Shown here piece after piece: positions 6,031 to 50,279 of a stretch of 64,000 nucleotides of DNA. Source of the DNA: Odontocerum albicorne (Eukaryota; Arthropoda; Insecta; Trichoptera; Odontoceridae); contig OX463859.1 in the NCBI GenBank assembly GCA_949825065.1, positions 23,391,847 through 23,455,846 of the forward strand, given 5' to 3'. The notes beneath the pieces were generated by a model that saw nothing but the letters and a program-made list of their open reading frames with translations, was not told where the DNA came from and made no database searches. The position numbers and the translations under genes are program-made. Numbering within the stretch: position 1 is the stretch's first letter; every line of letters starts with the position of its first letter.

Positions 6031-6035
6031 AATCT

Positions 6036-9793: not shown

Positions 9794-12109
9794 CTATAGT
9801 TAAAATTATGGATTGTATGGATAACTATAGTTAAAATGATTTATTATTTTTTAAATTAGAGGATTTACTGTCGAGTTACAGCATTTATTATTTTGAGGCT
9901 CTGGAGACATGTAAAATTGTACCAAAATGATCAGGTATGTTGTTGTTGCTCCAACAATCTAAAAATAAAGAAATATACAACAATCTAAAAATAAATAAAA
10001 ACTCAGAATTATTTACGATTATGAAATAAAAATCAAAATTGTTTATTTTTCAATATTTCTTTTTCTCGTGGTATGCCCTGAAGCATGGTTGGAAACACAA
10101 CGGAACATTGCACTCAGAACACATAAATTTAGTCATTTTACGCACTTTCATATTTATTTTAGTTTTAGCACAGACATGACACCTTCGACGTGGATTTTTG
10201 CACTTTGGCGTAGATGGAATGTTTATCTTTTCATGATTTAAATATTTTTTCGGTATAAATCTTGTAGGGTTATCCGCAGAAGTAGTGGGGCGTTGAACTT
10301 TGTTGACAATTACTTTTTTTGAATTTTTCTCAATCAATTGCCGAATAACAGCTAGCTGAAATTCAGCCAGACTAACCGATTTGGATGTAACAAGTTTGTA
10401 CAAAATATGGGCGTTGAGCAAATACAAATCTATTACATGGAAAAACACCTTCTTGTACCATTTGACGGGCTTTCTCATGCAACTTAATCCACTTAGCATC
10501 ATGTCCGCTTTGTCTACCAAACCCATACATTTGTTGTAATCGATTACGCACTTGGGTTTTTGTATGGCTTCACCGGTTGACCTATTTACTTTTCCAGTAC
10601 AATCTTTTGAATCGTCATGAAGAGTGGTAAGCATGTGCACGTCGCGCCGATCACACCATTTCAGCGCCAGCAATTTTCCATTGTTAAAAGATTCCATTTC
10701 TCCCTCTTTCAATTTTTTAAAACTTGGCATGCCTTTTCGGTTTTCACGCACTGTTCCACAAGCATTTGTTTTGTTTTCATATAATCGTTTAAAGAGTTCA
10801 GGGCTAGTGTACCAGTTATCACAAAACAAACTGTGTCCTTTTCCGATATAATTATTTAATAGAGTTGTGACCACTGAACCAGATATACCGAGTACCATTT
10901 CATTAACAATTTCAGTTTCAGATCCTGTATAAATTATGAAATCTAATATATATCCAGTCATCACGTCACAGAGTACAAACATTTTAATTCCAAATCTATG
11001 CCGTTTTGACGGGATATATTGTTTGAAAACCAAGCGCCCTTTGAAAGCAATTATGCTTTCATCTATGCAGAGATTCTGAAAAGGTGCGAAGGTTTCTTTA
11101 AATATTTTTCTGGTAAAATCAATCACTATTTTTATTTTATGCAGTCTATCTGATGATTGTGATGCATTGTCACTAAAATGTAGCATCTGTAAAATGAGCT
11201 CAAATCGATCCCTAGACATTGTTTGCCCGAAAATAGGACTCAGCAGAAAAGGATCTGTTGACCAGTGCTCCTCGATGGTAAGATGACGATTCCTCGTCAT
11301 TAACATTGTAACTGCTATAAATATGTACATTTCGTAAATAAATGTATCATACCATCTTCTTATCCTTGATTTGTCTCCAAAACTTTTATTATAAATTTCA
11401 TGTTGATAAAAACTATTCGTTTCGTCAACAATTTTGTTAGTTATATCTACATTGAGAAAATGTTCAAAATAGTCAAGTTCGGTGGAGTTTTCAGAAAACG
11501 TAATGTCTGGATTCACTCCTGAAAATGCGTTGAAATTATGAATAACCGGAATATGTGGACCCGAAAGCCACGAAGATGAATACGTTTCTGTAGACGATTC
11601 GCCGCCAAATCCAACATTTTCATCATTATCGGAATCAATAACATCACTAAGGTTCGAAATATTATCGTCTTCACTAACACTTGATCTGTAATTTGACCCA
11701 AGTTCACATACGTAATCGACAACTTCTTCACTTACACCACGTTTAGCCATAATGAAAGATGACGTATTAAAAATAATAACACAGAAAATTTATTGATTTC
11801 AAATACAAATATCAAATTTCAAATCAAAACACTAAAAACTGACAATAACTAAACGAATCATATACAATTATACAGTCTCTCTTTCTCTTTGAATAATGGC
11901 CGTGAACTCTTATATATGAAGGAGTATACGCCAGTGTCAAGTGATGTCAGCTTCATAGTATTTAGGTAGTTCTATTCACATGGGCGACATGGCACATCAA
12001 GCATTCGGCCCGGGACTACTGTTATCTAGTGAGATACTATGGAGTTAAACTATTTTATAACTAAACTACATAGTTTACAACTAAATGCATATTTACAATA
12101 AGATGATAG
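9794..12109 (-). mobile_element. piggyBac element, ends tentative
   Basis: The intact transposase ORF at 10050-11750 lies between TTAA at 9790-9793 and 12110-12113. Reading inward, the left end begins CTATAGTTAAAATTATGG and the right CTATCATCTTATTG, so only CTAT and scattered bases agree. The true ends may be different nearby TTAA sites, and the locus could be a domesticated gene without ends. Confidence 0.4.
10050..11750 (-). CDS. piggyBac-type transposase, intact 566 aa
   Basis: This is a DDD transposase of the piggyBac family (DDE_Tnp_1_7 domain), a nuclear enzyme that cuts and inserts at TTAA. Visible are an acidic N-terminus (about residues 1-60) and the catalytic core with the three aspartates in LCIDESIIAFKG (near 230), LFCDNWYT (near 310) and KCMGLVDKADMM (near 410). 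A C-terminal cysteine-rich zinc domain follows (about 525-560: CHVC, CSEC and a final CFRAYH). The length is normal for the family and there is no frameshift or internal stop. It sits between a SINE and a decayed LINE, probably in the last intron or 3' flank of the receptor gene at 22.9 kb. Its intactness among broken elements suggests recent activity or selection. Confidence 0.93.
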   Translation of the reverse strand: MAKRGVSEEVVDYVCELGSNYRSSVSEDDNISNLSDVIDSDNDENVGFGGESSTETYSSSWLSGPHIPVIHNFNAFSGVNPDITFSENSTELDYFEHFLNVDITNKIVDETNSFYQHEIYNKSFGDKSRIRRWYDTFIYEMYIFIAVTMLMTRNRHLTIEEHWSTDPFLLSPIFGQTMSRDRFELILQMLHFSDNASQSSDRLHKIKIVIDFTRKIFKETFAPFQNLCIDESIIAFKGRLVFKQYIPSKRHRFGIKMFVLCDVMTGYILDFIIYTGSETEIVNEMVLGISGSVVTTLLNNYIGKGHSLFCDNWYTSPELFKRLYENKTNACGTVRENRKGMPSFKKLKEGEMESFNNGKLLALKWCDRRDVHMLTTLHDDSKDCTGKVNRSTGEAIQKPKCVIDYNKCMGLVDKADMMLSGLSCMRKPVKWYKKVFFHVIDLYLLNAHILYKLVTSKSVSLAEFQLAVIRQLIEKNSKKVIVNKVQRPTTSADNPTRFIPKKYLNHEKINIPSTPKCKNPRRRCHVCAKTKINMKVRKMTKFMCSECNVPLCFQPCFRAYHEKKKY

Positions 12110-19172: not shown

Positions 19173-22100
19173 AGTGAATAACAATGTGTTGTCAACGTTG
19201 AACCAGCCCATAGTCGAAAAATTTGGTCTTCGATGAGACATGTAAGTCGAAAATCGATGAAGCTGAAACAGGTATTCAATAAAACAATAAATATTTATTA
19301 TAAAAATTACAAAACATAACATATTATAATATAATAAAAGTATATGTCTTTAAAGAGGAAGAAAAAATATAAGCTGCGGTATATAAGAGTGTCCACAGCG
19401 TACAGCCCTGGACCTTCTGAGACCTGGTATGTCGTAATCTGGTGGGCTTATTGCCGGGTGGCAATCTCTTCCAACCAACAAGACAAAAGTAAATAAAAGA
19501 AGTTACATGATTTAAAAAAAATATCCAAATTATTCACTTTTACAAAATTCATGAACAATACACATAGTAAAAATAAAGGTGAGATACAGGCTATACATAC
19601 ATACCATCACGCTATTTCCCTATTGGTGAAAACAGAGAGGACAGAGTGCCGAACTTTCCTATCTCGACACGCATTGTTCATCACTTCTACATCCATACAC
19701 TTCCTCGTGAAATTGCTATGATTTTTCTGACTGTCAACATTTCCCTTATATCAGCCTTATATTCCAATTCGCCACTCATCACTAATTCCATATTCTTTCG
19801 TACATTATCCACCCTGTGTATGTTTCTCATATGCATTTATTCAGCTCCTTTCAGGTCTTAAGTTATGTCAATATAAACTCTATAAAATTAATAAATAAAG
19901 CTTAATTGATGTGTTCAAAAATAATATAACACCCTGGCCATGAAGTTTAACATCTTTCCTTCACCATTCGGAATTATTAAAGAGTAACATTGAATGAAAA
20001 AATAAGCAAATGTTTGAATTCAGTTCCGGTTTACTAAAACAAATGAATATTAGTTTAACACTTTAAGACTTGATCAAAATCATAACAACCTTTCTCAGTG
20101 CCCGGCTTGTTTTTGAGGAATTTTAATTTTTGAGAAGGAATTACTAAAATTTCTATATCTAAGTGAATTTTAAGAAGATTGTAATGAAACTTTGTATGAT
20201 AATTATGCCAACATTCTTCTTTGTGAACAGCTGCATCACACTCCTTACGTATATAGTATGTATACCGGGTCTCACTTCTTTTCTTGAGCTTAGCACATAC
20301 CTAACAAATTATACAGGGTTTTTCTTTTACATAATTTGATAGAATACATTGACAACCTATTTAGATGATCCTGCAAATTCCTTATTCTATTTGGATCTGG
20401 AATTGGTTTCCAAATTCATATGTTAAGATCTGATACTTCGCTGCACATTGATGATGCGACCCTAGAATCTCCATCATATATCAATTCAGGCATATTTTCA
20501 TTATCTAGTATTGTCCATGTTAAAAAAAATAACTATAATTAAAAGGTGTAATTGTTTACAAAAATATTTGCTAGATGTCAATAATACCTTTTTTTTGGAA
20601 GAGTTATTGATCACGTGAAAACACGGGACCGAGTTTCAATACAATTCTAATTTATCCCATTAAAACACGGGATCGGGACACAAAATGGTAATGTTGCAAA
20701 TTTATTTTTATAAATGTTAGTCATATTACATGAGAAAAATATACCTCATCACTCACGTCTTCCAAATCCTCTTCAATTAAAAGTTTATTGATGAGTGTTG
20801 CAGTATCATCAGCCTGGAATGTTGGTTTAAAAATTTATTAACACTGCAACTACTAACTTTAATATTTCTTATTGGTTTGGGTGAGCATAAAGTAGTATCA
20901 AAATTGAATATAAAGTAGAATCATTTGAATATAAAGTAGATTCATTTGAATATAAAGTAGAATCATTTGAATATAAAGTAGAATCAAAATTAGATGGTCT
21001 AATAAAAAGACTAAAATTCATGATATAATTTCTGCTAACATTGAGATATAGGTGACATGTGCAGCTTAAGGAAGTATTTGAAGAAAACCCTTTTTGAGAA
21101 GTCTCATAAAAAATTATGATTATATATGAACACTACACACATTGAAGTGTATTAAATATATTATATGCATATTATGTTGTTATCAATAAACCTATATTTA
21201 TTTATTTATAATCAAATATCGGAAGATCAACCAAGTATTTATAATTAATTTTTCTTGGTAAGTTTTCTGCGTTTAAACATTTGCTAATGGAGAGAAGTTT
21301 TTAATCCAATGGCCACAACCATCACCTTCTTTTAAGGGCACTTAAAAACATTTTTTGTTTTTTTTTTATCATATTTTTTATCTGTTTATAATAGTGGATT
21401 ATTATCCCCAGTTAGAGGACCTTGATATTTGGCGGAAAAAATACCTGCGTCATTCGAGGGGAGAAGCACAGCGCAGAGTTCGAACTGACAACCTTTGCAC
21501 GGAAGTCCAGTGTGTTACTGTGTCGCCATGCACTTCACAAATATGATACCAAAAAAACACTCAATCAATTTGGATATACAATGGCCAAAAACAATGCGCC
21601 TTACTAAACCTTTCATAATAATATACATTCAGGATATTTGGAATGAAGCTAGCAATGCAAATTATGTCCAAAAAATATCTTAGAAATGTGAAACGACTTC
21701 CTAGATAGCATATATCAGTGGAAAATTCTAAATCTGTGTAATAAGATGTGTTACTTAGCTTGGTCGCTAAATAATCAAAAGGTTTTTTTTTGTGATTTTG
21801 TATCATTTGATAAACATATTTTCTTTTTAATTTCAATTTATTCTTGTTACTTAACATTAATTTTCTGAGTGGCCTTGGTTTTCTTTTTACTTTGTAAAGT
21901 AATGAAATGATAAGTTACTTACCATGTTTTTGCATCCTTCACACATGGCAATGGTAAAAATAACATAAATTGCATGAAAACCACACTGATTTACAGATTG
22001 TATGAGAAACTCGTAGGTAATGAGGGAATCCCCTTCTCCTTTGTACATTAATATGGCAACACTCAATATGTAAAAGAGATTAAAAACAATAGAAACAAAA

Positions 22101-22975
22101 CTGTATAATAAGTTAGAAAGCAACTTCAAGGAAAATGACTCTCCGATAATTTCGGCAGAATCACAACACATATCATATAGTTTCCAAATATTATTTATCT
22201 TTGTCACCATAGTATTCTGCCTTAATTCTTTATGCAAACCTTTTAATCTATCTATAAACAATATGTTCTTATCTAAAGTTTTATATTCTTCTTTTATACC
22301 AGTTTCAAAAGTATTTTTACACAAATTTGCAAGTTCCTTGTTGACAATCATCATATCTTGTTTTACAAAGTATACAAAATATCCATAAATAATCATAATC
22401 AAGCTAGCAATATACGATGGAATATTAATAACAACAATCAGCTCTAATGATGTATTGTTTTCCCAATAATACAGGTTTAATAAATTGAAAGATACAAACA
22501 AAATATTTATAGCTTGAGTGAAAAAAACCAAACCGAGTGATTTCCTTAATAATAATGTGTGGTTTTTTCTGGTTCCCAAATTTTTTACAAGCTCATCCGA
22601 GATAATTAAAGTCTTTAAGACTCTAGCATATCTATTGATATCATAGACAGTTTCAAAGATTTGAAACATAATGCTTGATAATCCAATATAGACACGAAAT
22701 TTTTCAGCAATTTTTAATATCATAATTGAGTTTAAGCTTGACATCAAATACTCGTCCTTTAAATTAACTTGAACAATGCAATATATAAAGATAATGTCCA
22801 TTAATATTGAGTTAAAAATGTTTCGATAAGAAAAATACGTTTTGGGATCATCTCCTAAATCAAATTTAAATGGTGCGATTCCAGCGAAGCGAGCACTAAC
22901 TATCATTGGATTTATGCATTCCTGAAAACTATTGGCACTTGTCGAACTTTTTAATCTTTTTTTTAATTCAAACAT
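19173..22975 (-). CDS. Gustatory receptor, exons 1-3 found, last exon missing
   Basis: Exons on the minus strand are 22975-21923 (351 codons, donor GTAAGT), 20813-20745 (23 codons, ADDTATLINKLL to EDVSDE, donor GTATAT) and 19262-19173 (30 codons, LHRFSTYMSHRRPNFSTMGW to LLFT, donor GTAAGT). All junctions are phase 0. The protein is a predicted 7-transmembrane receptor of the insect gustatory family. Several hydrophobic segments, the IWKLYDMCCD motif before TM6 and the FSTMGWFNVDNTLLFT segment before TM7 are visible. The final TY-x5-QF exon should lie below 19173, but I could not identify it; the DNA there is full of elements (piggyBac, LINE, solo LTR). The gene may be complete with a distant exon or may have lost it. 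Intron 1 contains a SINE. Confidence 0.85.
19385..19480 (-). repeat. SINE family B body fragment
   Basis: The minus strand contains GGTTGGAAGAGATTGCCAC, shared with the body of the SINE at 35878-36060. No tRNA head is present. It lies in intron 2 of the receptor gene. Confidence 0.45.
19585..19880 (-). repeat. RTE-like LINE 3' end fragment
   Basis: It shares with 25985-26270, 34545-34990 and 50745-50995 the run CCATCACGC..TTTCCCTATTGG, then GAGGACAGAGTGCC and ACATCCATACAC. In the 34.5-kb copy the minus strand of this block is the end of an RTE-like ORF2, so these are antisense LINE 3' ends. Confidence 0.6.
20905..20990 (+). repeat. Short tandem repeat, about 21-bp unit
   Basis: About four copies of GAATATAAAGTAGAATCATTT in intron 1 to the right of... 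the 22.9-kb receptor exon 2, next to its acceptor side. Confidence 0.8.
21415..21540 (-). repeat. tRNA-derived SINE, family A
   Basis: The minus strand begins GTGCATGGCGACACAGTAAC and carries a B box like AGTTCGAACTC. It sits between exons 1 and 2 of the receptor gene at 22.9 kb. Confidence 0.75.
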
Positions 22976-23180
22976 TTTTTTACTTTTTATCTACTCAAAG
23001 CTTAAGTGTTTTATATTTTGATATAATAAATCGACTCTCATGTTGTCATGACTAAATAGACAGGAAAAAATGAATGCCTTTGAGTAATATAGTATATTCG
23101 TTTTGATAATTAATTCATACATAATTACTCTAATGTAGAAATGAACTTTTTTTCCATTAAGTTAATTTTGTTTACATTTA

Positions 23181-25466: not shown

Positions 25467-28400
25467 CTATACTGATAGAGCAAACTGGATAAGAATTATC
25501 AACTGAGTTGTAATAGCCCCAATAACCTGAAAAAAATATTTTAAAATTCATTTCAATAAGTTAAAAAAAAAACAAGTTGAATTATTCATATATGTGGTAA
25601 TTTCATAATACAGTGGAACCTCGGTTTTCAAACTTAATCTATCCTGGAATGCTGTTCAAAAACCGAACCAATTTTTCCCATAAGAAGTAATGCAAATTGC
25701 GTTAATCCGCTCCAAACTCTCAATTGAAAATTTAACGGCGGTGAAGAGGAGAGATGTTATTGTTTGGAAAGGGACTCACCTTGCATAAATATATATTTAT
25801 CCTTCTAGGTCTCTTTATCAAATGAAGTTTGTTTATGCCTGCATTTAAAAAAAACTCTGAAGTGAGGCATCTCATTGTCATTAAAAATGTATGTTCAAGA
25901 ACCAAATTGTTGAAGATGAGAGACGTTCGAGAACAAAGGTTCCACAATATTTAAATATTTATTGGATAGCCATACAATACAAGAGGATGGTTGCACGTGC
26001 ATACATACATATGTTACCATCACAATGTTTCTCTGTCGGGATAGGTGAGAGGAGAGAGTGCCAGACTTTTCTATCGCGATATCCATCTTTAGCATTTTTT
26101 ACATCCAAACGCCTTCTCATATAACTCCAACGATTTCTCTTCCTTTTAACATTTCCTTCTTTAAAAATATTATTCACGTGGTGCATTTTATTCTTTCAAA
26201 ATATAATTTACAAAATTAATTCAAACTATGCTTTCCTTGGTCTTCCTTTACCATGCTCTTCACTCACATTAGCACTATATACAATATTTGTTTTGTTAGT
26301 ACGAGGCATATCCAGAAAGTAAGTGTACTGAATTTTTGTAGGTTACAATTTTTTTTATTTAAACAAAAAAATTACGTGGTTACCGTAGTACATATGTAAG
26401 CTATTTTTCGACATAGTCGCCATTCCTCTCAATGCAGGTGGTGAAGCGGAGTATCAACTTTTTTATGCCTTCCTCGAAGTAGTTTCCTGCTAACCCCTCC
26501 GTCCACTTCTCCACCTCCTTCTTTACCTCCTCGTCGGTTGAAAACCTTTTTCCACCCATGTGCAGCTTCAGGGAGGTAAAAAGAACGTAATCAGAAGGTG
26601 CTAGGTCAGGGGAATGCGCGGGATGGTTCAGGACATCCCATTTAAACGAGGCGAGCAGTTCCTTCGTGTGTGGTCTGGCATTGTCGTGCAGCAGGCAGAC
26701 TCCCTTTGTCAGCATGCCTCTCCTCTTGTTCTGAATCGCCCTCCGCAATTTTTTTAGGGTCTCACAGTATCTTGCAGAGTTGATGGTCTCCCCTTGAGGC
26801 ATATATTAAATTAAAATTATGCCTTGACAGTCCCAAAACCGGATGCCATGATTTTCTTGGCTGAAATTGTGGTTTTTTCCACAATTTCGTCAGTCACAAT
26901 TGAAGGTCTTCCGCTCCTCTGATCATGCACAGACGTACAACCGTTTTTAAACTCGCGACACCACTTGTACGATTCATAGCTTTATCACCATATGCAGTTT
27001 TCACCTCATTATAAACCTCAACCGGAGGTTTCCCTTCCGAACGAGATAACGGATGACGCCGCGTATTTCGCACTTGGCGGGAGATTGGATTGACATTTTT
27101 CACGAAACGTGTTGTCGCGTCGACACTTCTCAACGTACTGACCTCGAACCGGTCTCATTGCGGAGGGGAAGGGTCAGGCTACACGGAAGTGTAGCCAATA
27201 TGTCGAAAATAAAATCCATCCGGTCGTGAGAGCCTCAGTACCCTTACTTTCTGGATACGCCTCGTATTTCTTCATTTATTGATTCTACATGCCCAAACCA
27301 TTTCAGAGTGCTCTTTGTCATCTTACTCAACACATCAACCTTAAGTTCACATTCATCCCTAATCATGTCATTTCGTATTACGTTATACGTTGTCACCCCA
27401 TGTATTCTTCTTAACACATGTAACTACAGCATTTAATCATGTAATTTCGTATTATGTTATACGTTGTCACCCCATGTATTCTTCTTAACACATGTAACTA
27501 CAGCATTTAATCATGTAATTTCGTATTATGTTATACGTTGTCACCCTGTGTATTCTTCTTAACACATGTAACTACAGCATTTATTCATCTCGATTAAAAA
27601 ATAATTGTGTGTGAAGTTTTGAATAATCATAATGGCTGCTCAAGATCTTATACTTAATCAATAAAATAATGTATACCTTCACTTCTCTATTTTATTAGGA
27701 AGAATAAAAGATGGTATATTTTACGAATTCACAACTCAAATCTCCTTAAAATGAGGGGCAATGATCTTTATCAATGAGGTGTAATGTTCATGTGTTGCTT
27801 ATCAAAGTCTTGCGAACAATCAAGAACTAATGTATTGCATACCAAAGTCTTCCGAACAATCAAGAACAAATGTATTGCATACCAAAGTCTTCCGAACAAT
27901 CAAGAGCTAATGTATTATATGCCAAAGTCTTCTGAACAATCAAGAACTAATATATTGCATACCAAAGTCTTCTGAACAATCAAGAACTATAGTTCGGAAA
28001 TTCTAGGATGAGTCCTGTGACAGCTCACAAATTTGCCCCAATACAACCTTGTGTAGGAATACCTACCTAAATAAATAAATAAATAAATAATTGTCAAAAT
28101 GAATAAGTGAATTGTTAAACACAATTAAATGAAATTAATTATTGTCAGATAGTAAACATACAGGGGCAATGACCGATGAAGAATTCAATGATTGTCACAC
28201 ACTATGAACAACAACAATATTTACTATTTACAACGTCTGCGAATTGGCTAGCCATCTCCAAATATAAATAATTAACCTACCGCCAGTTCATTCGCTAGAG
28301 CAAGGCAGATATGTATCGCGAATGTATTCACTCATTGGTATAAATTACTCGGACGCCGAGAATTAAAGATATTATTATTGTCATTCATTCAACTGTCAAG

Positions 28401-31400
28401 ACTTGTTATTTATTTTACCCGCTGTCCACTTATCGTTTTATATCCGCATTCCTGAGTCTATATTCATTGAATACAAATCAAGATCATCATGACTTATCAA
28501 GATAAGCAATCCGCTATATTGATGACTCTCAACGAGAAGTAACGCAGAATCAACTAAAACGAAGAGCGATGTCGATATCAAAATCATCAGCACGTCCTAA
28601 TAGGACACACGCTACATTGATAACGACCATCGTTACATTGGTGACCCCGAACGAAAACCGAACACGTACATCGACGAACTACACCATCGTTACATTGATG
28701 ACCCCGCACGAAAAAAGAACACCGCTACAAAAACTGAATACGTATTCCGACTAAATCGAATATCGCCGACTCGATAAACAGGAGGGGTAATCGCTACATT
28801 GACGACCCCGCACGAAAACTGAATACGTATCTCGACTATATCGAGTGTTGCTAACTCGATAAACACCGAACAAGTGCAACTTGACACCGCCATCATCAGC
28901 AGCAACGCAATGAGCATCATGAACAGTTTCGTCAACAAGATTTTCGAGCGCAACGCCGCCAACGCCAACCGCCTCGCCCACTACAACAAGATGAGCATCA
29001 TCACCAGCAGAGAGATCCAGACCACCGTCAAGATTCTACTCCCCGGCGAATTGGCCAAGCACGCCGCCAGCAAGGACACCAGAGCCGTCACTCAGATACA
29101 ACACAACATCTGATGTGGACGAGCCCGACGCCAGCTCATGTGAGGTCAGTTCTGGCGATCAGCCACACGATTTACAGGATTGCCTCCCTCGACGAACTAC
29201 TGACCGACAAAATGCTGGAGCAGACAAGCATCGATACAACCACGGACATCGATACAACCACGATACAACCACGCTACAACCACGCTGCAGCAACGAGCAC
29301 CGCAGACTCCACCATCATCAAGCCACCGCAGATCAACCTTCCACATCGGAAGCCATCTGCAACTTGATCTACATCATCACCACCATCATCAAGCCACCGC
29401 AGATCAACCTTCCACATCGGAAGCCATCTGCAACTTGATCCACATCATCACCACCATCATCAAGCAACCGCAGATTAACCTTCCACATCGGACGCCATCT
29501 GCAACTTGATCCACACAACCAATCATCGACGATCAACGCAACGACCAACCAAGCACCGCAGACAATTCAAATTTAGTGAGAGACGACCAAACCTACCCCC
29601 CGTTCCCGCATCACCCATCTGAACGACAGACCTGGGAAAAAACGCCACGCGCTGCTGTTATCCACGTACCTACTTCACAACGGGAAACGGATAACCAGTC
29701 CAGGCGTCAGATGCACTGGAAACCTAACGTTCACGCAGGACACGCGCTCTCTGCGTTCACTAGGAAGGGAGCTATGTAGGAATACCTACCTAAATAAATA
29801 AATAAATAAATAATTGTCAAAATGAATAAGTGAATTGTTAAACACAATTAAATGAAATTAATTATTGTCAGATAGTAAACATACAGGGGCAATGACCGAT
29901 GAAGAATTCAATGATTGTCACACACTATGAACAACAACAATATTTACTATTTACAACGTCTGCGAATTGGCTAGCCATCTCCAAATATAAATAATTAACC
30001 TACCGCCAGTTCATTCGCTAGAGCAAGGCAGATATGTATCGCGAATGTATTCACTCATTGGTATAAATTACTCGGACGCCGAGAATTAAAGATATTATTA
30101 TTGTCATTCATTCAACTGTCAAGACTTGTTATTTATTTTACCCGCTGTCCACTTATCGTTTTATATCCGCATTCCTGAGTCTATATTCATTGAATACAAA
30201 TCAAGATCATCATGACTTATCAAGATAAGCAATCTGCTATATTGATGACTCTGAACGAGAAGTAACGCAGAATCAACTAAAACGAAGAGCGATGTCGATA
30301 TCAAAATCATCAGCACGTCCTAATAGGACATACGCTACATTGATAACGACCATCGTTACACTTGTAACGATGTTCAGTAATTTTAATTATTTTATCAACT
30401 TCAATATGAGCCTCAATTCTAATAAAAAGCAAGTTATTTAAGTAAATACATTACATAAGGTCGTATAAGGGTAAATTTGTGAGCTGTCACAGGACTCATC
30501 CTATAATTTCCGAACTACGAGGCATATCCAGAAAGTAAGTGTACTGAATTTTTGTAGGTTACAATTTTTTTTATTTAAACAAAAAAATTACATTTCAGTT
30601 ATCGTAGGTAGTACATATGTAAGCTATTTTTCGACATAGTCGCCATTCCTCTCAATGCAGGTGGTGAAGCGGGGTATCAACTTTTTGATGCCTTCCTCGA
30701 AGTAGTTTCCCGCCAACCCCTCCGTCCACTTCTCCACCTCCTCCTTTACCTCCTCGTCGGTTGAAAACCTTTTTCCACCCATGTGCAGCTTCAGGGAGGT
30801 AAAGAGATAGTAATCTGAAGGTGCTAGGTCAGGGGAATGCGCGGGATGGTTCAGGACATCCCATTTAAACGAGACGAGCAGTTCCTTCGTGGCGTTGGCC
30901 GTGTGTGGTCTGGCATTGTCGTGCAGCTGGCTGACTCCCTTTGTCAGCATGCCTCTCCTCTTGTTCTGAATCGCCCTCCGCAATTTTTTTAGGGTCTCAT
31001 GGTATCTTGCAGAGTTGATGGTCTCCCCTTGAGGCATATATTCAATTAAAATTATGCCTTAACAGTCCCAAAACACGGATGCCATGATTTTCTTGGCTGA
31101 AATTGTGGTTTTGAACTTTTTGGCGGAGGGTGAAGAGGTGTGACGCCACTGTTGAGACTGCCTTTTGGTTTCAGGCGTGTAGTGTGCAACCCAAGTTTCA
31201 TCTCCAGTAACAGTGGAGCGGAGAAATTCATCTCCATGGAGTTTGCAGCGCCTCAAAAACTGTTGCCCGGCCTCCACTCGATTCAACTTGTGTTGGTCTG
31301 TCAGCTTTTTTGGGACCCACCTCGCGGACAGTTTCCGATATTCGAGGGTTTCTGTGATGGTTTCGTGTAGTAGAGATCTGGAGATTTGCGGAAACATCGC

Positions 31401-34400
31401 AGAAAGTTCATCCACAGTCAATCTACGATCGTCACGGAGCGCATTTTCGATTTTTTCCACAATTTCGTCAGTCACAATTGAAGGTCTTCCGCTCCTCTGA
31501 TCACCATGCATAGACGTACGACCGTTTTTAAACTCGCGACACCACTTACACTCGTACGATTCATAGCTTTATCATCGTATGCAGTTTTCACCTCATTATA
31601 AACTTTAACCGGAGGTTTTCCCTTCCAAACGAGATAACGGATGACGCCGCGTATTTCGCACTTGGCGGGAGATTGGATTGACATTTTTCACGAAACGTGT
31701 TGTCGCGTCGACACTTCTCAACTTACTGACCTCGAACCGGTCTCGTTGCGGAGGGAAAGGGTCAGGCTACACGGAAGTGTAGCCAACATGTCGAAAATAA
31801 AATCCATCCGGTCGTGAGAGCCTCAGTACACTTACTTTCTGGATACGCCTCGTATAATGTATTGCATACCAAAGACTTCCAAACAATCGAGATATTGTAT
31901 AATAGGAGTTACATAGCCATCAATAGTATGATCCAAGAGAGATATTGATACCCTTAATATGAATAAGCTGTTAAGTGAGGCTGCACACTAGAAAATTTAA
32001 AAGACTGTTATATGGATAACTAAGTTAAACAAACAGAATGTTATTTTACTCACCGTAAATAAGAAAGCGTTATCAAGATAGAACAAACCCATGGCACTGA
32101 AAACTGGTTTCCGATGGAGCATGTGCGTGGAGAATCGATGCAGCTAAAATAAAATGACAGTAAATCAATCAATCAATGTGTTTCTTTAAATAATAAATAA
32201 ATAAATAATAGGTTTATTGATAGCAACATAGTATGTACAGATTATATTTGAATAACACTTCTAAAACACATAAATTGCAGATAATACATTAAATACAGAA
32301 GCTATCAAAAGGTCTGGGCTCATCTAATAGCATCCCCTCGGCCAAGATACACCCCACCAATATAGGGCGAACCCAGCCACTTTCTCAATTTGGAACCAAA
32401 AATATTAGGCGCATGGAAAAAAATAATAATAAATTATTTCCGAATATAATTTTTTCAAGTTCTATAGAAGGAACAATAATTTTAGATAACTCTTTCAAAA
32501 TGTGGATAGACCCAATCAATTAAATTTTGAAAGGGAGAAAAAACTGAGGTACATTCTCAAGGAAAAAAATAATAATAAATTATTTCCAAATATAATTTCA
32601 AAGAAAAAAATAATAATAAATTATTTCCAAATATAATTTTTTCAAGTTCTATAGAAGGAACAGTAATTTTAGATAACTCAAAGAAAAAAATAATAATAAA
32701 TTATTTCCAAATATAATTTTTAGATAACTCAAAGAAAAAAATAATAATAAATTATTTCCAAATATAATTTTTCAAGTTCTATAGAAGGAACAATAATTTT
32801 AGATAACTCTTTCAAAATGTGGATAGACCCAATCAATTAAATTTTGAAAGGGAGAAAAAACTGAGGTACATTCTCAAGGAAAAAAATAATAATAAATTAT
32901 TTCCAAATATAATTTCAAAGAAAAAAATAATAATAAATTATTTCCAAATATAATTTTTTCAAGTTCTATAGAAGGAACAGTAATTTTAGATAACTCAAAG
33001 AAAAAAATAATAATAAATTATTTCCAAATATAATTTTTAGATAACTCAAAGAAAAAAATAATAATAAATTATTTCCAAATATAATTTTTCAAGTTCTATA
33101 GAAGGAACAGTAATTTTAGATAACTCAAAGAAAAAAATAATAATAAATTATTTCCAAATATAATTTTTTCAAGTTCTATAGAAGGAACAGTAATTTTAGA
33201 TAACTCAAAGAAAAAAATAATAATAAATTATTTCCAAATATAATTTTTAGATAACTCAAAGAAAAAAAAAAAAAAATTATTTCCAAATATAATTTTTCAA
33301 GTTCTATAGAAGGAACAGTAATTTTAGATAACTCAAAGAAAAAAATAATAATAAATTATTTCCTAATATAATTTTTAGATAACTCAAAGAAAAAAATAAT
33401 AATAAATTATTTCCAAATATAATTTTTCAAGTTCTATAGAAGGAACAATAATTTTAGATAACTCTTTCAAAATGTGGTAAGATCAAATCAATAAAATTTT
33501 GAAAGGGAGAAAAACGAAAAGTGTTTTAAAGGATGCTTGACAAATAATATAGACTTGGCAAAAGATGAAAAAGTTTGTCAGAATAGAAATTTTAATAGTA
33601 TGATGAATAGTTAGAAATGTAAACTACTTGACGTGAGATTGATGAATAAATTGGAGAAAGTCAATATAAATTGAGAAGCAGTATTCCAACAAGATTCTGC
33701 TCCATGCTACAAATCTAAGATGATGATGATTAACTATTTCCAAGAAAACAGTTTTACCCTCTCCTGATATAAATTCGATTGAAAATTTATGGGCTATTTG
33801 TAAAGCCAGGATCCAGAAAACAGATTGTATAACGAAACAGAATATGATTGAAGCAACAATTAATGTAACATATGTTTTCGGGATGAGCAAATATTGAAAA
33901 ACTGCAAAAACTTATTCAATCCGGGGCAAAATGCATACAAAAAGTTATAAAAGCTAAAACAGCATATTCTTTTTATGGCTACTAAATACTTATTTCATTA
34001 TTTTATCCTTATTCATATTAATTCACACACTACTTACGTTTCATGTGCTGTATCTCGTACCCATGAGAAAATATCACTGTTGAGAAAATATCTCTGTCTT
34101 TGGCAGCATAGAACTGCTCTTCTATGAGAAAATATCACTCTTGAGAAAATATCTATCTTTGGCAGCATAGAACTGTACTAACTAACCTTTCACTGATTCC
34201 TCGTTGACCTTAGATTATGCTTCTGCCTTCCTCGATTGGGACAGAATGTAATAGGAATGATTATGGAGAGAACGGGATTGCTGTGACTAGGAAACTCAGC
34301 AGCATTTTGGTTGAGGAACTTTACTTACGTAGCTAGCTGCTGATTCTTGAAGTTAGCTTTTTATTTTTGTCACAAAATATATAAATACTGGAATATACTT

Positions 34401-37400: not shown

Positions 37401-39328
37401 TGAACAATAAAAACCCAAGAACGAGAAGTGCGAGAATCAATTTCTTTAAGATGTTCAATTAATGTCGGATGCTGATCAGAAGAATTAATGTCTTCATACT
37501 CCACATGTTAAATGTGATGGTACAATTGTTCTAATATGCTTCTAGAGTATCTTGTCATTCTTTAGGCATATTTTCAGATATGACGTAGATAACCAGGAGA
37601 AATTGGTGGTCATGTGAAGTGTGCTCAATATATCCGAATTGTGTTTCGGACATGGCTAGAAAATAATATTGTCTTTGGTCCCAATAAACGAGCCTTTCGG
37701 TTTAGAGCCTCTGGAGTAGGCACGGAGCTTGTATTTCATAATTGAACGTGTTGGCAACATTACCAGTGTGTGTGAGTATTGTTACTAAATAAACTCTTTT
37801 ATTAGACTGGCACCACCATTAAACCAGAAACCTCCAGAAATATTATCACTGGGCTATGGAGGTTATTTGTTATTTGCCTGTCTCTCAAAATATCTTATTG
37901 TACTGAACTCAACCTTTTTGTGATGATGTGATAAATAAAGTAAGGTAAATGGGGTATGCATTGGGATATAGCTGTATCGGATGTATTGCCTCATGGAAAA
38001 ATAGAAAAAAATGTCACCTACTGGAACGTCGACTGTGTTTTTATTTTGACAAACTTATACTTGCCAAAGAGGAATCTTTACCCTGCTCTTCACCGTAAAC
38101 ACAAGAGCGGCAGCCATCCACTTATTTTAGGGTCTTTCTACAGGTGCTGTACAACAGCATTAAGCTTTTATTGATCTTAAGTTTCATTAAAATATTTCAC
38201 TCACTGAAATTATGGATAAAAAGGTACGACTGTATTTCAATGTTAACAATTATCAAATATATGGTATATACAAGAATAACTCACCGCATCGTTGCAATTT
38301 TGGCCTGTTTTGATAATATAGAACATAAAAATTGATTTGTCAAATAATTGATGAAATGAGAAATACAAAAGGGCAAGTAGTCTATCTGATTGCTTTCCAG
38401 AGTATATTAAACTGATCGTGCTAAGTGCATAAAATATATTCAACACAATGGAAACAAAAGATACGGAAAAAATCAAGAGCATTTTAAAAGAATATGCTAT
38501 ATACATATATCCTGGTATATCACATAAGTGGTCATATGTCTGCCATATCTTATTGATCTTATTGATCATTGTTTGTTTTCTAAGTTCTGTATTTGCTTCT
38601 TTATTCTTAGGCTTAACTTTGTTTTTCTCAATTTTTATGTACTTCTCTATCACACCTACAACAACACTATATTTGCACATTTTTGCTAGTTCTTTATTGA
38701 CACATTTCAAATTATCCGTCAACATTTTCATATATAAACTGAAAATCATCAAAGCTATATTGGTCATAAAACTTGGAACATACAAAGCTATAACCATTTG
38801 AATAGAAGGTCCGTGATTGAAAGATTTTATTATTATTAAATAGTTTCCAAATAATAATATAATATATATTAAAGGGGTTATGAATAATATTAAAAAATTA
38901 TTACGCTGCATATTTTTATAATTTCTTTTAACTCCCATTTTGACTAACATATCATCAGCGTCAATAAAGGCTTTAACTGCTACTGCATATCGGTCGATGT
39001 TTGTAAAGTTTTCCATGCTAATAATACATAAAGTTATCAAGCCTTGGTACAGTTGAAATTTTTCTGTAATTTTATAAATAAGTGACAAATTGATCAGAGA
39101 AATACTTGTTTCTTCTGAAAAATGAACTTTTATAACGCTTAATATATAAAGAATCGATACGATGATTGTGTAAACAAAATAAGATTTCAAAATTTTTGTC
39201 TTGGCAACCTCTTTCCCCACTACATAGTAAAATGGTGCCAGATTATAAATGTTGCAAAAAAAAAAAACAGTATTTAAACTTTCAGTAAAGTTTTTTGGCT
39301 TAAAATACTTTTCAATTATTTTTGACAT
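25467..39328 (-). CDS. Gustatory receptor, four exons, very large introns
   Basis: Exons are 39328-38285, 35795-35727 ([20 protein letters not shown] and three more codons, donor GTAAGT), 32143-32054 ([20 protein letters not shown] to FLFT, donor GTGAGT) and 25526-25467 ([19 protein letters not shown], stop TAG). All introns are phase 0. The protein is about 420 aa: an N-terminal cytoplasmic start, seven predicted membrane segments, the [10 protein letters not shown] motif before TM6 and the [10 protein letters not shown] tail that defines the GR family. An upstream ATG at 39358 in the same frame would add ten residues; MSKIIEKYF is preferred by match to the neighbours. Introns of about 2.5, 3.6 and 6.5 kb carry several transposons, tandem arrays and the H2B-bearing LTR element. 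No break was seen in the exons, so the gene may still be spliced. Confidence 0.88.
25611..25947. mobile_element. pogo/Tigger-like MITE
   Basis: It begins CAGTGGAACCTCGGTTTTC after TA and ends near GTTCGAGAACAAAGGTTCCA, an imperfect inverted match. CAGTGGAACCTCGG is a classic pogo/Tigger terminus. It lies in the last intron of the receptor gene, 85 bp from the last exon. Confidence 0.75.
26302..27264 (-). mobile_element. mariner element, family 1, internally deleted (963 bp)
   Basis: Terminal inverted repeats are CGAGGCATATCCAGAAAGTA and its complement, with TA at 26300-26301 and 27265-27266. Minus-strand frames: 27133-26894 holds part of the N-terminal DNA-binding region; 26802-26401 holds the second half with HDNARPH and [12 protein letters not shown]. 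The middle, including the first catalytic aspartate, is lost; the junction near 26875 lies in a repeated AATTGTGG-like microhomology. Not functional. Confidence 0.92.
27363..27590 (+). repeat. About 79-bp tandem repeat, 3 copies
   Basis: The unit contains TTTCGTATTATGTTATACG and CACATGTAACTACAGCATTT. It starts inside the LINE 3' end, so a piece of the LINE was amplified in tandem. Confidence 0.85.
27795..27985 (+). repeat. About 40-bp tandem repeat, 5 copies
   Basis: The unit is CATACCAAAGTCTTCCGAAC then AATCAAGAACTAATGTATTG. One further copy resumes at 31858-31895, so the 3.87-kb block 27990-31852 is a nested insertion into this array. Confidence 0.85.
28052..28637 (+). repeat. 5' LTR
   Basis: It starts TG and ends CA. 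A TATA-like GGTATAAATTAC near 28338 is followed by GAATTAAAG (polyadenylation-like) near 28360, consistent with U3 then R order. The three differences from the 3' LTR that I see are near 28510, 28530 and 28606. Confidence 0.93.
28639..28650 (+). promoter_or_regulatory. Primer-binding site, with repeated copies downstream
   Basis: TGGTGACCCCGA follows the 5' LTR after one base and would pair with a tRNA ending TCGGGGTCACCA. Similar units follow: TGATGACCCCGC near 28696 and TGACGACCCCGC near 28799, each preceded by a copy of the LTR end (CGTTACAT or CGCTACAT). The tRNA partner is not identified. Confidence 0.65.
28868..29113 (+). CDS. Histone H2B-derived ORF captured in LTR element (C-terminal two thirds)
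   Basis: The frame is open from about 28823 to the TGA at 29111-29113. From 28868 it follows histone H2B: an EQVQLDTAI segment (H2B KQVHPDTGI), then [39 protein letters not shown] and AVT plus five residues and stop, exactly the H2B end. About 70% of roughly 66 aligned residues agree with a typical animal H2B as I recall it. This covers histone-fold helices 1-3 and the C-terminal helix; the basic tail and first part are absent. Changes include R to M in the HYNKR loop and loss of the lysine normally ubiquitinated near the end (AVTK to AVTQ). The first in-frame ATG is 28910; a GTG at 28874 is in frame. Codons end mostly in G or C. Whether it is translated is unknown; it is not a normal histone gene. 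Confidence 0.9.
29114..29774 (+). other. Interior of LTR element downstream of H2B frame
   Basis: GC-richer DNA with short overlapping frames of low-complexity composition (His, Pro, Thr, Ser). It includes ATCGATACAACCACG-type repeats near 29230-29285. No retroviral-type domain was recognised. The polypurine tract AGGAAGGGAG at 29762-29771 directly precedes the 3' LTR. Confidence 0.7.
29310..29515 (+). repeat. About 71-bp tandem repeat, 3 copies
   Basis: The unit contains CCACCATCATCAAGCCACCG, AGATCAACCTTCCACATCGG and AAGCCATCTGCAACTTGATC. It lies inside the LTR element and could encode repeated residues if translated, but no known domain. Confidence 0.85.
29775..30360 (+). repeat. 3' LTR
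   Basis: The same length as the 5' LTR and about 99.5% identical by eye. Followed by CTTG, the target duplication. Confidence 0.93.
30518..31852 (-). mobile_element. mariner element, family 1, near full length (1335 bp)
   Basis: Same terminal repeats as 26302-27264, with TA at 30516-30517 and 31853-31854. Minus-strand frames at 31684-31472, 31511-31059 and 31037-30624 cover the whole transposase: N-terminal HTH region, SRSLLHETI linker region, catalytic [20 protein letters not shown] and [12 protein letters not shown] (DD34D spacing). Two frameshifts separate them, so the copy is broken although all domains remain. It sits at the edge of MITE copy 3, in the last intron of the receptor gene. 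Confidence 0.93.
32215..32400 (-). repeat. LINE 3' end fragment, antisense
   Basis: Read on the minus strand it resembles the 3' end of the LINE fragment at 39990-41290: a GGGGATGCTATTAG run and a GGTGTATCTTGGCC run correspond to GGGATGTTATGAG and GTGTATCTCAGCTG there. A similar piece follows the gap at 3959-4000. Confidence 0.5.
32395..33520 (+). repeat. Complex nested tandem array
   Basis: Repeats of AAAGAAAAAAATAATAATAA then ATTATTTCCAAATATAATTT alternate with TTCAAGTTCTATAGAAGGAAC and TTTTAGATAACTC. Short units are nested in longer blocks of about 290 bp that recur. It is in intron 2 of the receptor gene, close to the acceptor of exon 3. No coding. Confidence 0.92.
33665..33965 (+). pseudogene. 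Tc1-like transposase C-terminal fragment
   Basis: Plus-strand frames read [16 protein letters not shown], then [20 protein letters not shown] and, further on, [21 protein letters not shown] sequence. QDSAPCHK and SPDINPIENLWA hold the second aspartate and the glutamate of the DDE triad in Tc1 transposases. Frames are shifted between segments and no ends were found. Confidence 0.8.
34067..34175 (+). repeat. About 60-bp direct repeat, 2 copies
   Basis: The unit ATGAGAAAATATCACT..TTGAGAAAATATCT..TTTGGCAGCATAGAACTG occurs twice in a row. Confidence 0.85.
34545..34990 (-). pseudogene. RTE-like LINE ORF2 C-terminus and 3' end
   Basis: The minus-strand frame at 34939-34709 reads [20 protein letters not shown], then [20 protein letters not shown] and [36 protein letters not shown] and GRPRKxWxDQ are signatures of the end of RTE-like LINE proteins in insects. 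This is the most intact of four copies of this 3' end in the window. Confidence 0.85.
35112..35600 (+). repeat. 49-bp tandem repeat, about 10 copies
   Basis: The unit is GTGCATGTCTTAATACCCGA, TCAAGAAGATCAATGCCC and TTTCTATTATA, with few changes between copies. It lies in intron 2 of the receptor gene, just downstream of exon 2. The unit is related to the adjacent LINE 3' sequence. Confidence 0.93.
35878..36060 (+). repeat. tRNA-derived SINE, family B
   Basis: The head CCTCCGTGGCCTAGTTGGTA carries an A box, and AGATTCGATTCCCGTTGG a B-box-like region, followed by a non-tRNA body with GGTTGGAAGAGATTGCCAC. The tRNA-like part cannot fold into a sound cloverleaf, so it is a SINE and not a tRNA gene. 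Confidence 0.75.
36178..37101 (-). mobile_element. mariner element, family 2, internally deleted (924 bp)
   Basis: Ends are CGAGGGTCATCCAGAAAGTA and its complement GAGGATCATCCAGAAAGTAA-like, with TA at 36176-36177 and 37102-37103. The minus strand encodes the N-terminal HTH region ([20 protein letters not shown], 36960-36742), the linker ([18 protein letters not shown], 36752-36471) and a C-terminal tail near 36290-36410. The catalytic middle is missing, and a 36-bp stretch near 36560-36610 is duplicated. It is in intron 1 of the receptor gene. Confidence 0.88.
37115..37985. mobile_element. pogo/Tigger-like element, decayed
   Basis: It begins CAGTAGTCCCCCCTTATCCA after TA, then GGACCCCCAG and AACTGCGGAT. 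At 37881-37960 CTCAAAATATCTTATTGTAC and TTGTGATGATGTGATAAA recall, from memory, the interior of vertebrate Tigger-type elements. The right end was not found and 37330-37880 is unexplained. A related fragment starts at 59870. Confidence 0.55.
38016..38165 (+). repeat. Dispersed repeat, shared with 56265-56430
   Basis: Both copies contain TGCCAAAGAGGAATCT, CCCTGCTCTTCAC and GCGGCAGCCATCCAC..TATTTTA, then GGTGCTGTACA. No coding or terminal structure was recognised. The copy at 56 kb has 25 extra bases. Confidence 0.7.
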
Positions 39329-39358
39329 GATTACTTCACAAGAAGTAAAATGATACAA

Positions 39359-39985
39359 TAATTCGTTTTAAAAATTCTTGTCATGTTTGATATTTGTATT
39401 AATTCTGATAAAATCTTAATGATCTCTGAAATAATCAGTTAAGTGTTATTTATTTTCAATTACATTCATTAATTTCTGATTATACCTTTTAAGTAATAAA
39501 CTTAAAAGATTATTTCATTAATTCACTGAAGATATTTTCTTCACATTCTTTTTAATTATTGTTATTTTAATTTTATTTTGTTATTTCTTAGCTTATTTTT
39601 TTATGCATATGGCATATGCATTCAAAGCATTAGTACTCAAAGACCAACAAAAGATTCTCAGCTCCAAAAACTGAATTCTACGAAGGATACTTATCCTAGA
39701 GCAGGCTGCAGAAGAATGGAAACAGAGATATGATGAAGAAACTCCAAAATGAACCAGACCATGAAATGTTTTTAGATAATTGTGCAGTAGGATCTTAGGA
39801 AGCTGAAAATAAATTAAGACAACTTTTCTCCAAGCCGAACAGTAGAATCGGCTTGAAGATCCCTTTCTGGGCTCTCAGAGAACACATGCCAGTGGCTAAA
39901 AAGTTTTCTAACTGGTTGGAGTCTATTAGTTACCACTAGAGACCATGCTTGATTATGGGTGCTTTCCCACCCCACGAGCCTTAAA
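39359..39985. other. 5' flank of receptor gene, no gene recognised
   Basis: AT-rich upstream region of the receptor starting at 39328. I could not pick a promoter element with confidence. Confidence 0.35.
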
Positions 39986-44337: not shown

Positions 44338-45125
44338 ATATTATTGTTGTAAAATTATTGCTTGTAATATTGTTTTATTGTTTGTAATATTGTTGTATTG
44401 CTTAGAATATTGTTTTATTGCTTGTTAAATTGTTGTATTGCTTGGAATATTGTTGTATTACTTAGAATATTGCATTGCTTGGAATGTTGATGTATTGTTT
44501 GTAATATTGTTGTATTGCTTGTAATATTGTTGTATTGCTAGTAATATTGTTGTTTAGCGGATTGGTTCTTATGGGAAGAGATGATGATGGTTTGTTGATA
44601 AATAATAAAACACATTAGATCGCAATGCGGAAAGAGAGTCTGTCGTATTTTATTAGTAACGTAGGTATTTATATCTTTTTAGAATGCGCGCGAGAATGCG
44701 CTCGCGATATGCCTGCGTCTCGTTTCTGTAAATGCAAAAACGATTAATTGTTGTATGTAGGTAACAATCTATTTACGGAACCGGCGAGACAGCGTGGTGC
44801 GTTCTCTCTCTAGTATGGAGTGCGGTCCGCTCGGCTACGGGATGACTGGCCGGCGGGTGACCTTCGGACTTGTTTACTTAGATTTATCGAGGAATCCGAA
44901 GGTCATTTCATCGGTCATTGACCGTACGTATGAACGCCCACAGTATCCGAGTGTGCGACCGCCACAGTTGTATTGCTTGGAATATTGTTGTTTTGCTTGT
45001 AATATTGTTGTATTGCTTGGTATATTGTTGTATTGCTTGTAATATTGTTGTATTGCTTGTAATATTGTTGTGTTGCTTGTAATATTGTTGTATTGCTTGA
45101 AATAATATTGTGTTGCTTATAATAT
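44338..45125 (+). repeat. 20-bp minisatellite, interrupted by a solo LTR
   Basis: The unit is TTGTATTGCTTGTAATATTG, with about 10 copies before 44554 and about 8 after 44966. The interruption is the solo LTR copy 2. The array lies just past the last exon of the receptor gene at 50 kb. Confidence 0.92.
44554..44966 (-). mobile_element. Solo LTR, copy 2
   Basis: 413 bp, nearly the same as 6036-6444 and with the same TTAG and CCACA ends. The flanking 5-bp duplication is GTTGT (44549-44553 and 44967-44971), although the minisatellite host makes that match less telling alone. No internal sequence remains. Confidence 0.75.
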
Positions 45126-48200: not shown

Positions 48201-50017
48201 AATTTGTTACCTGTACTGTCTTGATGTTGGAAAATTTGTTACCTGTACTGTCTTAATGTTGGAAAATTTGTTACCTGTACTGTCTTGATGTTGGAAAATT
48301 TGTTACCTGTACTGTCTTAATGTTGGAAAATTTGTTACCTGTACTGTCTTAATGTTGGAAAATTTGTTACCTGTACTGTCTTGATGTTGGAAAATTTGTT
48401 ACCTGTACTGTCTTGATGTTGGAAAATTTGTTACCTGTACTGTCTTGATGTTGGAAAATTTGTTACCTGTACTGTCTTGATGTTGGAAAATTTGTTACCT
48501 GTACTGTCTTGATGTTGGAAAAAATATGGAAGAATAGAACTAGAACTATTCCCATCACCATGAAAATGCGTCTAGTTAAGTCACTCGTCTTTGCAATATT
48601 CATGTATAGTACGGAGACCTGAACTTTGAAAGGAAGCAAGAGATGTAGAATAGAGGCATTTGAAATGTGGCACTGAAGAAGGATGTTACGAATTTCATGG
48701 ACAGTAAGAGTCAGAGGCTATCGTGGGAGTCACTTTGCTCAGTCATGAGCTACACGACAGGTTAATAATGATGATTCTTATACTCTATGGTTCCATTTTC
48801 TTTAAAACATTGTAAATGTTTTTCGCAGATAGTAAAAAATATGAAAAATGAGATACAAACCTCGTCACATATATCTTCAGATTCCTCTTGCATTAAAAGT
48901 TTACAAATCAATGTCTTCGTTTTTTCATTCTGAAAAAAAAATTACAATCAAAGAAGTTTCTAAAATACAACATATTACGAAACAAAAAGACAAAATGGTA
49001 TATTACCGCTTGTTTATATCTTTCACACTTAAAGACTCCATAAAGCATGAAGAAGATTTTACTCAAAGTTTGACGCACACCGATATACAACAGTATATAC
49101 AGGATTTCTGAGTTCTCTCCTTGTATTATTGAATTAACAACATTAAGAATATAAAAAATACTCATTGTTATAAATACAAAAGAAGTCAGAACAATATTTA
49201 AAATCTTCACTGTGTAAGCTTCGTAAGCCCTATGCGGCAGGTCACAACACATGTCGTAAGCTTTCCAAATCCATTTTATTCTTTTGATCATCGCTTTTTT
49301 CCTGACTTCACTGTTCATATCCTGAAGTTGTCCTTTTAAATATCCAGGAATTCCTTTGTAACATTTCTTGTGTGTAATTTTTTCAATGGATTCGTATAAT
49401 TTAATTAATTCATTATTAAGATCATCCACATTTCCCGTTACTAAATAAAGATTAAATGCTAAGGAGATTAATTCATGGTTAGTTAAATAATCTGAAAAAC
49501 ACAGAGCTATGATCTTTCCTGGAGATGGCTTTATATTTATGGAAGAAAATAAAATTATATTTTCTAATAAAAAGCATAGATAAAGGGTAGGCGTTAACAT
49601 GAGCGTCATAGCAGATTTTCTAAATAATTTGGAATAGTTTCTTTTCACTCCCAGAGCTGTTATCATAATATCTGTTTCCAAATAGATTTTATACACTTTG
49701 GCATATCTTTTTATGTCAATCAACGCTTCACATCCCATAACAGATATATCTATTATTCCCAAAATGATTCGAAATTTATCTATGATCCTTATAAAAGTTG
49801 AATTTCCGAAATATGAAGTAAGGAAATCTTCGTAAATGCAGACTTTTAAAGCGCAAACTATGTAAATAAGCATAAGTAAATTAGAATAAATAAAAAATGG
49901 AATTGAAAATGAAACGTTTTCAAAGTCTGATGAGAAATTAAATGGACTTATTCCGGTCATTTTCATTCCCATATGAGTATATTTAAAATATTCTGCAAAA
50001 GAGTTAATTTTTAACAT
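45207..50017 (-). CDS. Gustatory receptor, four exons, complete
   Basis: Exons are 50017-49007 (337 codons, MLKINSFAEY to YKQA, donor GTAATA), 48929-48861 (NEKTKTLICKLLMQEESEDI and three more codons, donor GTTTGT), 46207-46118 (LQRFLVYTWHRKPGVSVLRM to ILFT, donor GTGAGT) and 45323-45207 (MTAAIVTYLIIVIQFSLTRM then 18 residues and TAA). All joins are phase 0 and give 428 aa. The protein is a predicted 7-transmembrane taste receptor with inverted topology as in insect GRs; IWKAYDMCCD precedes TM6 and TYLIIVIQF lies in TM7, an exact family signature. It has the shortest first intron (77 bp). Its partner at 55-63 kb is a recent duplicate. Intron 2 holds a minisatellite and LINE and SINE fragments. 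Ligand unknown. Confidence 0.93.
45482..45546. repeat. Perfect hairpin, 29-bp arms, 7-base loop
   Basis: The arm is AAAATTAGTCCCCATCTAGC then GCGATCTAC; the loop is TTCCAGT. The arms match perfectly. It is in intron 3 of the receptor gene, 160 bp from the last exon. Confidence 0.95.
46745..46830 (+). repeat. SINE family A tail fragment
   Basis: CATGCCGGTGTGCTTTGATC and GTGTGCCATCAGATCCAGTA match the tail of the SINE at 41411-41680. No head. Confidence 0.55.
46850..48160. other. Intron 2 of receptor gene, no other gene recognised
   Basis: AT-rich intronic sequence with chance open frames. Nothing supported. Confidence 0.4.
48170..48520 (+). repeat. 32-bp tandem repeat, about 11 copies
   Basis: The unit is TTGTTACCTGTACTGTCTTG then ATGTTGGAAAAT, with T/A alternation at one position (CTTGATG or CTTAATG). 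It begins at the 5' edge of a LINE fragment. Confidence 0.93.
48525..48720 (+). pseudogene. LINE fragment (RT C-terminal region)
   Basis: The plus strand reads IWKNRTRTIPITMKMRLVKS, LVFAIFMYSTET, then KGSKRCRIEAFEMWH and RRMLRISWTVRV. KxRLVKxLVFPIFLYGxETWT and RIDAFEMWCWRRMLRI are typical of insect LINE proteins of the RTE/Jockey type. It is frame-broken and short. Confidence 0.75.
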
Positions 50018-50279
50018 TTTTAATGTTTCCTTAAATATTTTTACAGCACAAAGATAGACAAATATTTGTTACTGGCTTGTGTAAGCTTTTTTCTGAATAT
50101 CTCAAAAGTGCTCATTAGTTTAAAGGAAAGTTCTTAGTTATTAATAAAAATAAGTGATTTCGTTCATTGCTTATTTTTTATCCAATTAGTATAATTAAAC
50201 TGGGTCATACAATGTTATTAAGAGTGCTTGGTAAAATTATTGGAAAATCAATTGTAAAAAAAATAAATTACTAAAGTTA

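Follow-up and report, generated by a model that had tools for sequence, protein, structure and literature searches.

A family of long terminal repeat retrotransposons carrying a captured segment of histone H2B in the genome of Odontocerum albicorne

The window analyzed here, a stretch of 64,000 nucleotides from the caddisfly Odontocerum albicorne (contig OX463859.1, positions 23,391,847 to 23,455,846 of the forward strand), contains a long terminal repeat (LTR) retrotransposon of 2309 bp (28052..30360, delimited by sequence reading and LTR alignment) whose internal region includes part of a histone H2B coding sequence. There is strong support for the view that an LTR element captured host H2B, and the copy in the window is a young insertion from a late, diverged branch of a family with at least 181 scored copies. 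We consider it probable (about 0.8) that the capture was followed by spread of the chimera and then by drift of the H2B piece, carried as a passenger and diverging about as fast as the non-coding sequence beside it. Evidence that the piece yields a functional new protein is scant.

The two 586-bp LTRs (28052..28637 and 29775..30360, plus strand) end in TG...CA and differ at three sites (28512, 28530 and 28608), which makes them 99.49% identical, in agreement with the 99.5% or so given in a preliminary description of this DNA made from the sequence alone. The other structural signals listed there are likewise all present. The CTTG target duplication was read directly on both sides (28048..28051 and 30361..30364), the primer binding site TGGTGACCCCGA starts one base behind the 5′ LTR (28639..28650, plus strand), and a purine-rich tract, AGGAAGGGAG (29758..29774, plus strand), lies ahead of the 3′ LTR. 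We take the primer site to be complementary to the 3′ end of tRNA-Trp. Paired LTRs, a short target duplication, a primer site and a purine tract identify the element as an LTR retrotransposon. It had been described as devoid of gag and pol, and no stop-to-stop frame longer than 160 residues, such as autonomous gag and pol would require, was found on 28638-29774; the absence of gag is doubtful, given a gag-like remnant recognized by eye.

The open frame at 28868-29113 was correctly assigned to H2B. It best matches this histone in Pfam (Histone, PF00125, E = 8.8e-8), among PDB chains (H2B; single chains reach an E of about 1e-28) and in the protein database, where 3948 matches were obtained; among the 120 matches listed, identity ranges from 61 to 75% and the named entries are core histones, H2B, or unnamed or hypothetical products. 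No relatives outside the genome were found among phages or viral contigs, and the protein database matches are ordinary H2Bs. DNA alignment with a host H2B gene (locus L041) placed the start of the homology at host CAGGTGCACC and its end after GTCACC, followed by element sequence with a stop after six codons. The host-derived segment thus occupies 28871..29092 (plus strand), from QVH... to AVT with one inserted codon, and a tail, QIQHNI plus the stop TGA (29093..29113, plus strand), lies behind the junction after GTCAC[C/T]. The proposal that the frame runs to the native stop of H2B was rejected, since the element itself supplies the stop and the six residues before it. The match begins at QV of H2B, and a complete histone fold with helices 1-3 is not encoded; the N-terminal tail and helix 1 are presumably absent. 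About 14% of the nucleotides of this segment differ from host H2B. The window copy has no in-frame ATG ahead of the H2B part, the first one lying inside it.

The preliminary description named two findings that would refute it, a frame whose best match is not H2B and other copies without the histone piece; the first is contradicted by the matches above, and many further copies with the piece were recovered. With the 246-bp segment as genome query, 40 copies with 97-100% identity were scored among 389 candidates, the window copy included (L001-L040, hereafter the DNA-picked copies). With canonical H2B as query, 150 places were scored of 402 candidates; nine of them are host-type H2B (L041-L048 and a pseudogene, L050), and the 141 others lie outside host genes. 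These 141 places do not overlap the 40 DNA-picked copies when the listed places are compared by eye, and the resulting copy number is a lower bound because only the best candidates were scored. The analysis covered 121 frames, namely the 40 DNA-picked ones and 81 of the 141 from the H2B query, 21 of which had flanks (the protein-picked loci) and 60 of which were taken as stretches of about 365 bases, the remaining 60 being left out. Resemblance to H2B was the criterion by which all analyzed copies were selected, and such a choice favors intact frames. LTR pairs were found within 28 of 30 copies, at 94-100% identity (in one case over just 121 nt), which marks young insertions, and inspection by eye showed 4-bp target duplications in 11 or more of the 30. 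A host-derived internal segment is common to several copies, as in a non-autonomous LTR element that carries a host gene.

Sequence comparison identifies an H2B gene of the host itself as the donor. The H2B part of one copy, L049, differs from L041, one of four H2B matches clustered at C17:44.81-44.87 Mb, by four synonymous and no nonsynonymous changes in 73 codons. The 3′ junction pattern recurs in 75 of the 81 H2B-query frames and in 39 of the 40 DNA-picked frames, and the leader motif in 78 and 37 of them, respectively. The junction was missed in L037, L086 and L105, whose frames are shortened by stops, and in L108, L109, L112 and L119. A single capture is the simplest reading of a 3′ junction shared by 75 of 81 frames. 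The capture predates the insertion in the window, as had been claimed; an old age deduced from 71% identity to a typical H2B was rejected. Divergence from host H2B is modest, with dS of 0.02-0.31 (and dN of 0-0.157) from host to element among the rows printed. At L049, an 18-nt primer-site sequence, TGGTGACCCCGACGTGAT, stands directly behind the right LTR, and inspection revealed no target duplication; this end was perhaps copied from the primer tRNA, or is perhaps part of a composite.

A non-autonomous LTR retrotransposon would have taken up about 220 nt of host H2B once, most likely from mRNA through template switching of the reverse transcriptase in a virus-like particle, and the captured piece would have been placed ahead of an internal region resembling the end of gag. 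Histone H2B genes have no introns, so the absence of introns from the segment is no proof of an RNA route. The chimera then spread, presumably with proteins supplied in trans by an autonomous partner and probably with priming by tRNA-Trp, and after this spread the H2B piece would have drifted as a passenger. LTR-mediated template switching is proposed as a route by which mRNA sequence comes to lie between LTRs in section 2.2 of PMC5408686.

The H2B module is surrounded by at least three clearly different LTR types. The type found in the window (W) is present on at least one side of all 40 DNA-picked copies. A second type (G; about 405 bp, TGTGGCGG) flanks at least one side of 20 of the 21 protein-picked loci (L049 and L051-L070), L068 having it on neither side; L005, from the W set, also has a G-type match downstream. 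L132 has an LTR pair unlike W and G, L131 a pair that partly matches W, and L133 a W-like pair at 80%. In a fast tree of the H2B parts rooted on host H2B and computed with no support values, the 40 W copies group in a single clade from which G copies are absent, whereas the G-type copies trace back to the common ancestor of all 121. The G copies lie nearest the host, at a mean distance of 0.079 versus 0.201 for W. The nesting of the W clade, the proximity of the G copies to the host and the existence of further LTR types indicate that the module changed LTRs after capture. A unit made of LTR end, primer site and leader is repeated three times on 28626..28826 (28626-28665, 28683-28722 and 28787-28826, plus strand; repeat search), and the internal region of L055, a G-type copy, can be aligned with the window element from 28804 onward. 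The unit at 28787-28826 may be an older primer site left inside after the LTR exchange, and the stacked units would fit a new LTR and leader set before the old primer site. Elsewhere in the window, two apparently solo G-type LTRs, about 82% identical to that of L055, lie on the minus strand at 6034-6444 and 44565-44966, with the duplications GATT and CAAC, respectively, seen by eye. A fragment of a W-type LTR at 3546-3758 (83% over 193 bp) runs into a gap of 200 N at 3759-3958.

To judge drift against constraint, the H2B part was compared with the 130 nt that follow it, which include the 21-nt tail. Divergence was 5.7 versus 5.4%, 13.2 versus 12.4% and 2.5 versus 3.7%, and the replacement rate in H2B is 0.7-0.9 of that in adjacent sequence. 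On the internal branches of the tree of 121 frames, parsimony counted 39 synonymous and 87 nonsynonymous changes and no stop, with expected proportions of 0.30, 0.676 and 0.024, giving a nonsynonymous-to-synonymous ratio (omega) of about 0.99. The internal value was 1.02 in the 42 copies with an ATG directly ahead of the H2B part and 1.05 in the 79 without it. Within the 40 DNA-picked copies, omega was 1.39 on branches other than the stem and 0.94 on the stem itself, and it reached 1.82 (p = 0.11) in those that belong to the ATG group. These 40 copies show 13 synonymous versus 36 other distinct changes, two stops included (p = 0.87 against neutrality), and their frames are intact in 38 cases. 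Distinct changes listed by set amounted to 13 synonymous, 31 nonsynonymous and one stop in L001-L040, and to 35, 84 and two in the other short-stretch copies. Given the modest divergence from host H2B, the flank comparison and the internal branches, the suggestion that a frame kept open through many rounds of copying is meaningful is not supported, although the codon models disagree.

Several results weigh against drift. On terminal branches, 100 synonymous, 165 nonsynonymous and three stop changes give an omega of about 0.73, a value found both with the ATG and without it (p = 0.027 in the latter). Codon models, run with stop codons gapped and the 121 frames reduced to 113 distinct ones, returned omegas of 0.14, 0.26 and 0.54 under the different frequency models, and fixing omega at 1 (kappa fixed too) fitted worse; the dN/dS across copies, named beforehand as a check, is near 1 on internal branches and lower on terminal branches and in the codon models. 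An internal stop within the aligned codons occurs in only three of the 121 frames, whereas a neutral simulation gave a median of 40.5 and a mean of 52.7 stop-bearing frames, with three or fewer in one of 300 runs; on the tree, three stop events stand against about 9.5 expected of 394. Among the 40 DNA-picked copies there is no indel in the 246 bp of H2B, versus two in the next 117 bp and five non-terminal ones in the further 129 bp beyond. Distinct changes in the protein-picked G-type copies (32 synonymous, 46 nonsynonymous) lean to constraint, as do those in a 19-copy part of the ATG group (21 and 27). The third codon positions of the segment, which derive from the host, are rich in C; because this composition is inherited and not at equilibrium, the codon-model omegas were ranked below the parsimony values, as a matter of judgment. 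Since the copies were picked by H2B and their third positions are C-rich, more weight was given to the flank comparison and the internal branches.

The same departures from neutrality would be expected if the H2B frame were a working gene of the element, its short protein (helix 2 to the C-terminal helix) being kept, for example, for chromatin binding. Besides the deficit of stops, the codon-model values below 1 and the counts in the 19 ATG copies, this reading can draw on 118 of 121 frames that are open across the aligned codons, on indels that are only codon-sized across the 121 frames, and on start codons. An ATG lies directly ahead of the H2B part in 42 of the 121 copies (25 DNA-picked and 17 from the H2B query, comprising L002-L040 in part, L082 and others), and in all but one of those 25 DNA-picked copies the frame from this ATG to the stop encodes 83 residues; three further copies have an in-frame Met further upstream, which brings those with an upstream start to 45. 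However, 76 of the 121, the window's among them, have no upstream in-frame Met, only about 70 nt upstream being covered for 60 copies, and the W clade holds copies both with and without the ATG. The near-neutral omega of internal branches, also within the ATG copies, the replacement rate close to that of adjacent sequence, the presumed loss of helix 1 and a sample picked by H2B similarity make a working gene quite unlikely. A related idea, which we regard as rather unlikely, is that at least the ATG-bearing branch uses its many genomic templates to produce a shortened H2B of some 83 residues, or that the H2B stretches feed small RNAs that touch host histone mRNA, in which case divergence from the host sequence would itself be favored.

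The segment could instead be maintained because its RNA or DNA is useful, serving for example as a signal for packaging, spacing or expression. It is present in every copy examined, was retained through the LTR exchanges and is free of indels in the DNA-picked copies; yet its presence follows from the construction of the search and its nucleotide rate is not clearly under that of its neighbor, so that we hold such a role to be very unlikely. That an H2B pseudogene landed by chance in a single element, a reading for which the host-type pseudogene L050 could offer a precedent, was rejected as scarcely credible because the junctions are shared among many copies. Passenger drift after a single capture and spread fits best.

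Behind the H2B part, a second open frame (29113..29367, plus strand, found by frame reading) is read in a different frame from that of H2B and encodes in its first part a gag-like peptide, whose reading in several G-type copies includes LDELALLADKMLE. We take this first part to resemble the C-terminal part of a Ty3/gypsy-type gag, as recognized by eye. The peptide had no match in Pfam, PDB or the protein database, and the gag label, like membership in the Ty3/gypsy superfamily, is therefore putative, although the sequence looks like a gag remnant. A 71-bp tandem repeat in three copies follows (29309..29521, plus strand; repeat search). The LTR element itself interrupts the left inverted end of an older element (27990..30517), whose two ends measure 66 nt (27990-28055 and 30452-30517, 91% complementary; repeat search), just outside which lies a 40-bp tandem repeat (27790-27989; repeat search).

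Other mobile and host sequences occur in the window. An open transposase frame of 578 residues (10053-11786, minus strand) matches DDE_Tnp_1_7 in Pfam (E = 3.8e-86) and is presumably piggyBac-like. Mariner-like transposase pieces were recognized by eye at 30624-31568, 26401-26805 (minus) and 58886-59647 (plus); the one tested in Pfam, 30627-31055, matches Transposase_1. Four long frames matching the chemosensory receptor family 7tm_7 (Pfam) lie on the minus strand at 21890-22987, 38246-39364, 48911-50065 and 62257-63378.

Gene capture by LTR elements has precedents in plants, and a review describes the route (PMC4717578, PMC5408686). Plant terminal-repeat retrotransposons in miniature (TRIMs) with gene fragments carry exon-only host pieces, have target duplications and gave rise to further copies after capture, as described in PMC4717578. 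The present family resembles them as a small non-autonomous LTR element with a host fragment copied after capture. It differs in residing in an animal genome, in its size (2.3 kb with 586-bp LTRs), in its 4-bp rather than 5-bp duplications, and in showing one fragment in at least 121 copies, with a graded series to the donor and several LTR types. The element, at 2309 bp, also exceeds the length of under 1000 bp by which TRIMs are defined in PMC10886601, although members of up to 1263 and 1449 bp are described (PMC10886601, PMC4717578). In maize Bs1, too, an LTR element has taken up exon fragments of cellular genes, but host and genes differ (PMC4717578, PMC5408686). In contrast to the LTR-mediated retroposition outlined in PMC5408686, the chimera grew here into a many-copy family. 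The Helenus and Ajax TRIMs of PMC10886601 are non-autonomous LTR elements with host-derived sequence, and animal Helenus has 4-bp duplications; their tRNA or 5S rRNA pieces lie within the LTRs and are likely promoters, whereas here a coding piece is internal. Searches of open-licence PubMed Central papers, mostly at the level of titles and the opening of abstracts, listed no LTR element with a captured H2B, and in PMC6934838 histone genes appear only as controls for fluorescence in situ hybridization or in references.

The unusual features are the histone content, the number of copies and the gradation that leads back to the donor. Within one genome, and in association with several LTR types, the series starts with a copy that shares 98% identity with the donor gene and extends to copies in which about 20 residues are replaced. 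This lets the evolution of one of the most conserved protein sequences be followed once it is freed from its job. The family also allows an LTR exchange to be ordered, and an effect of an element-borne histone on host histone expression or small-RNA silencing to be tested.

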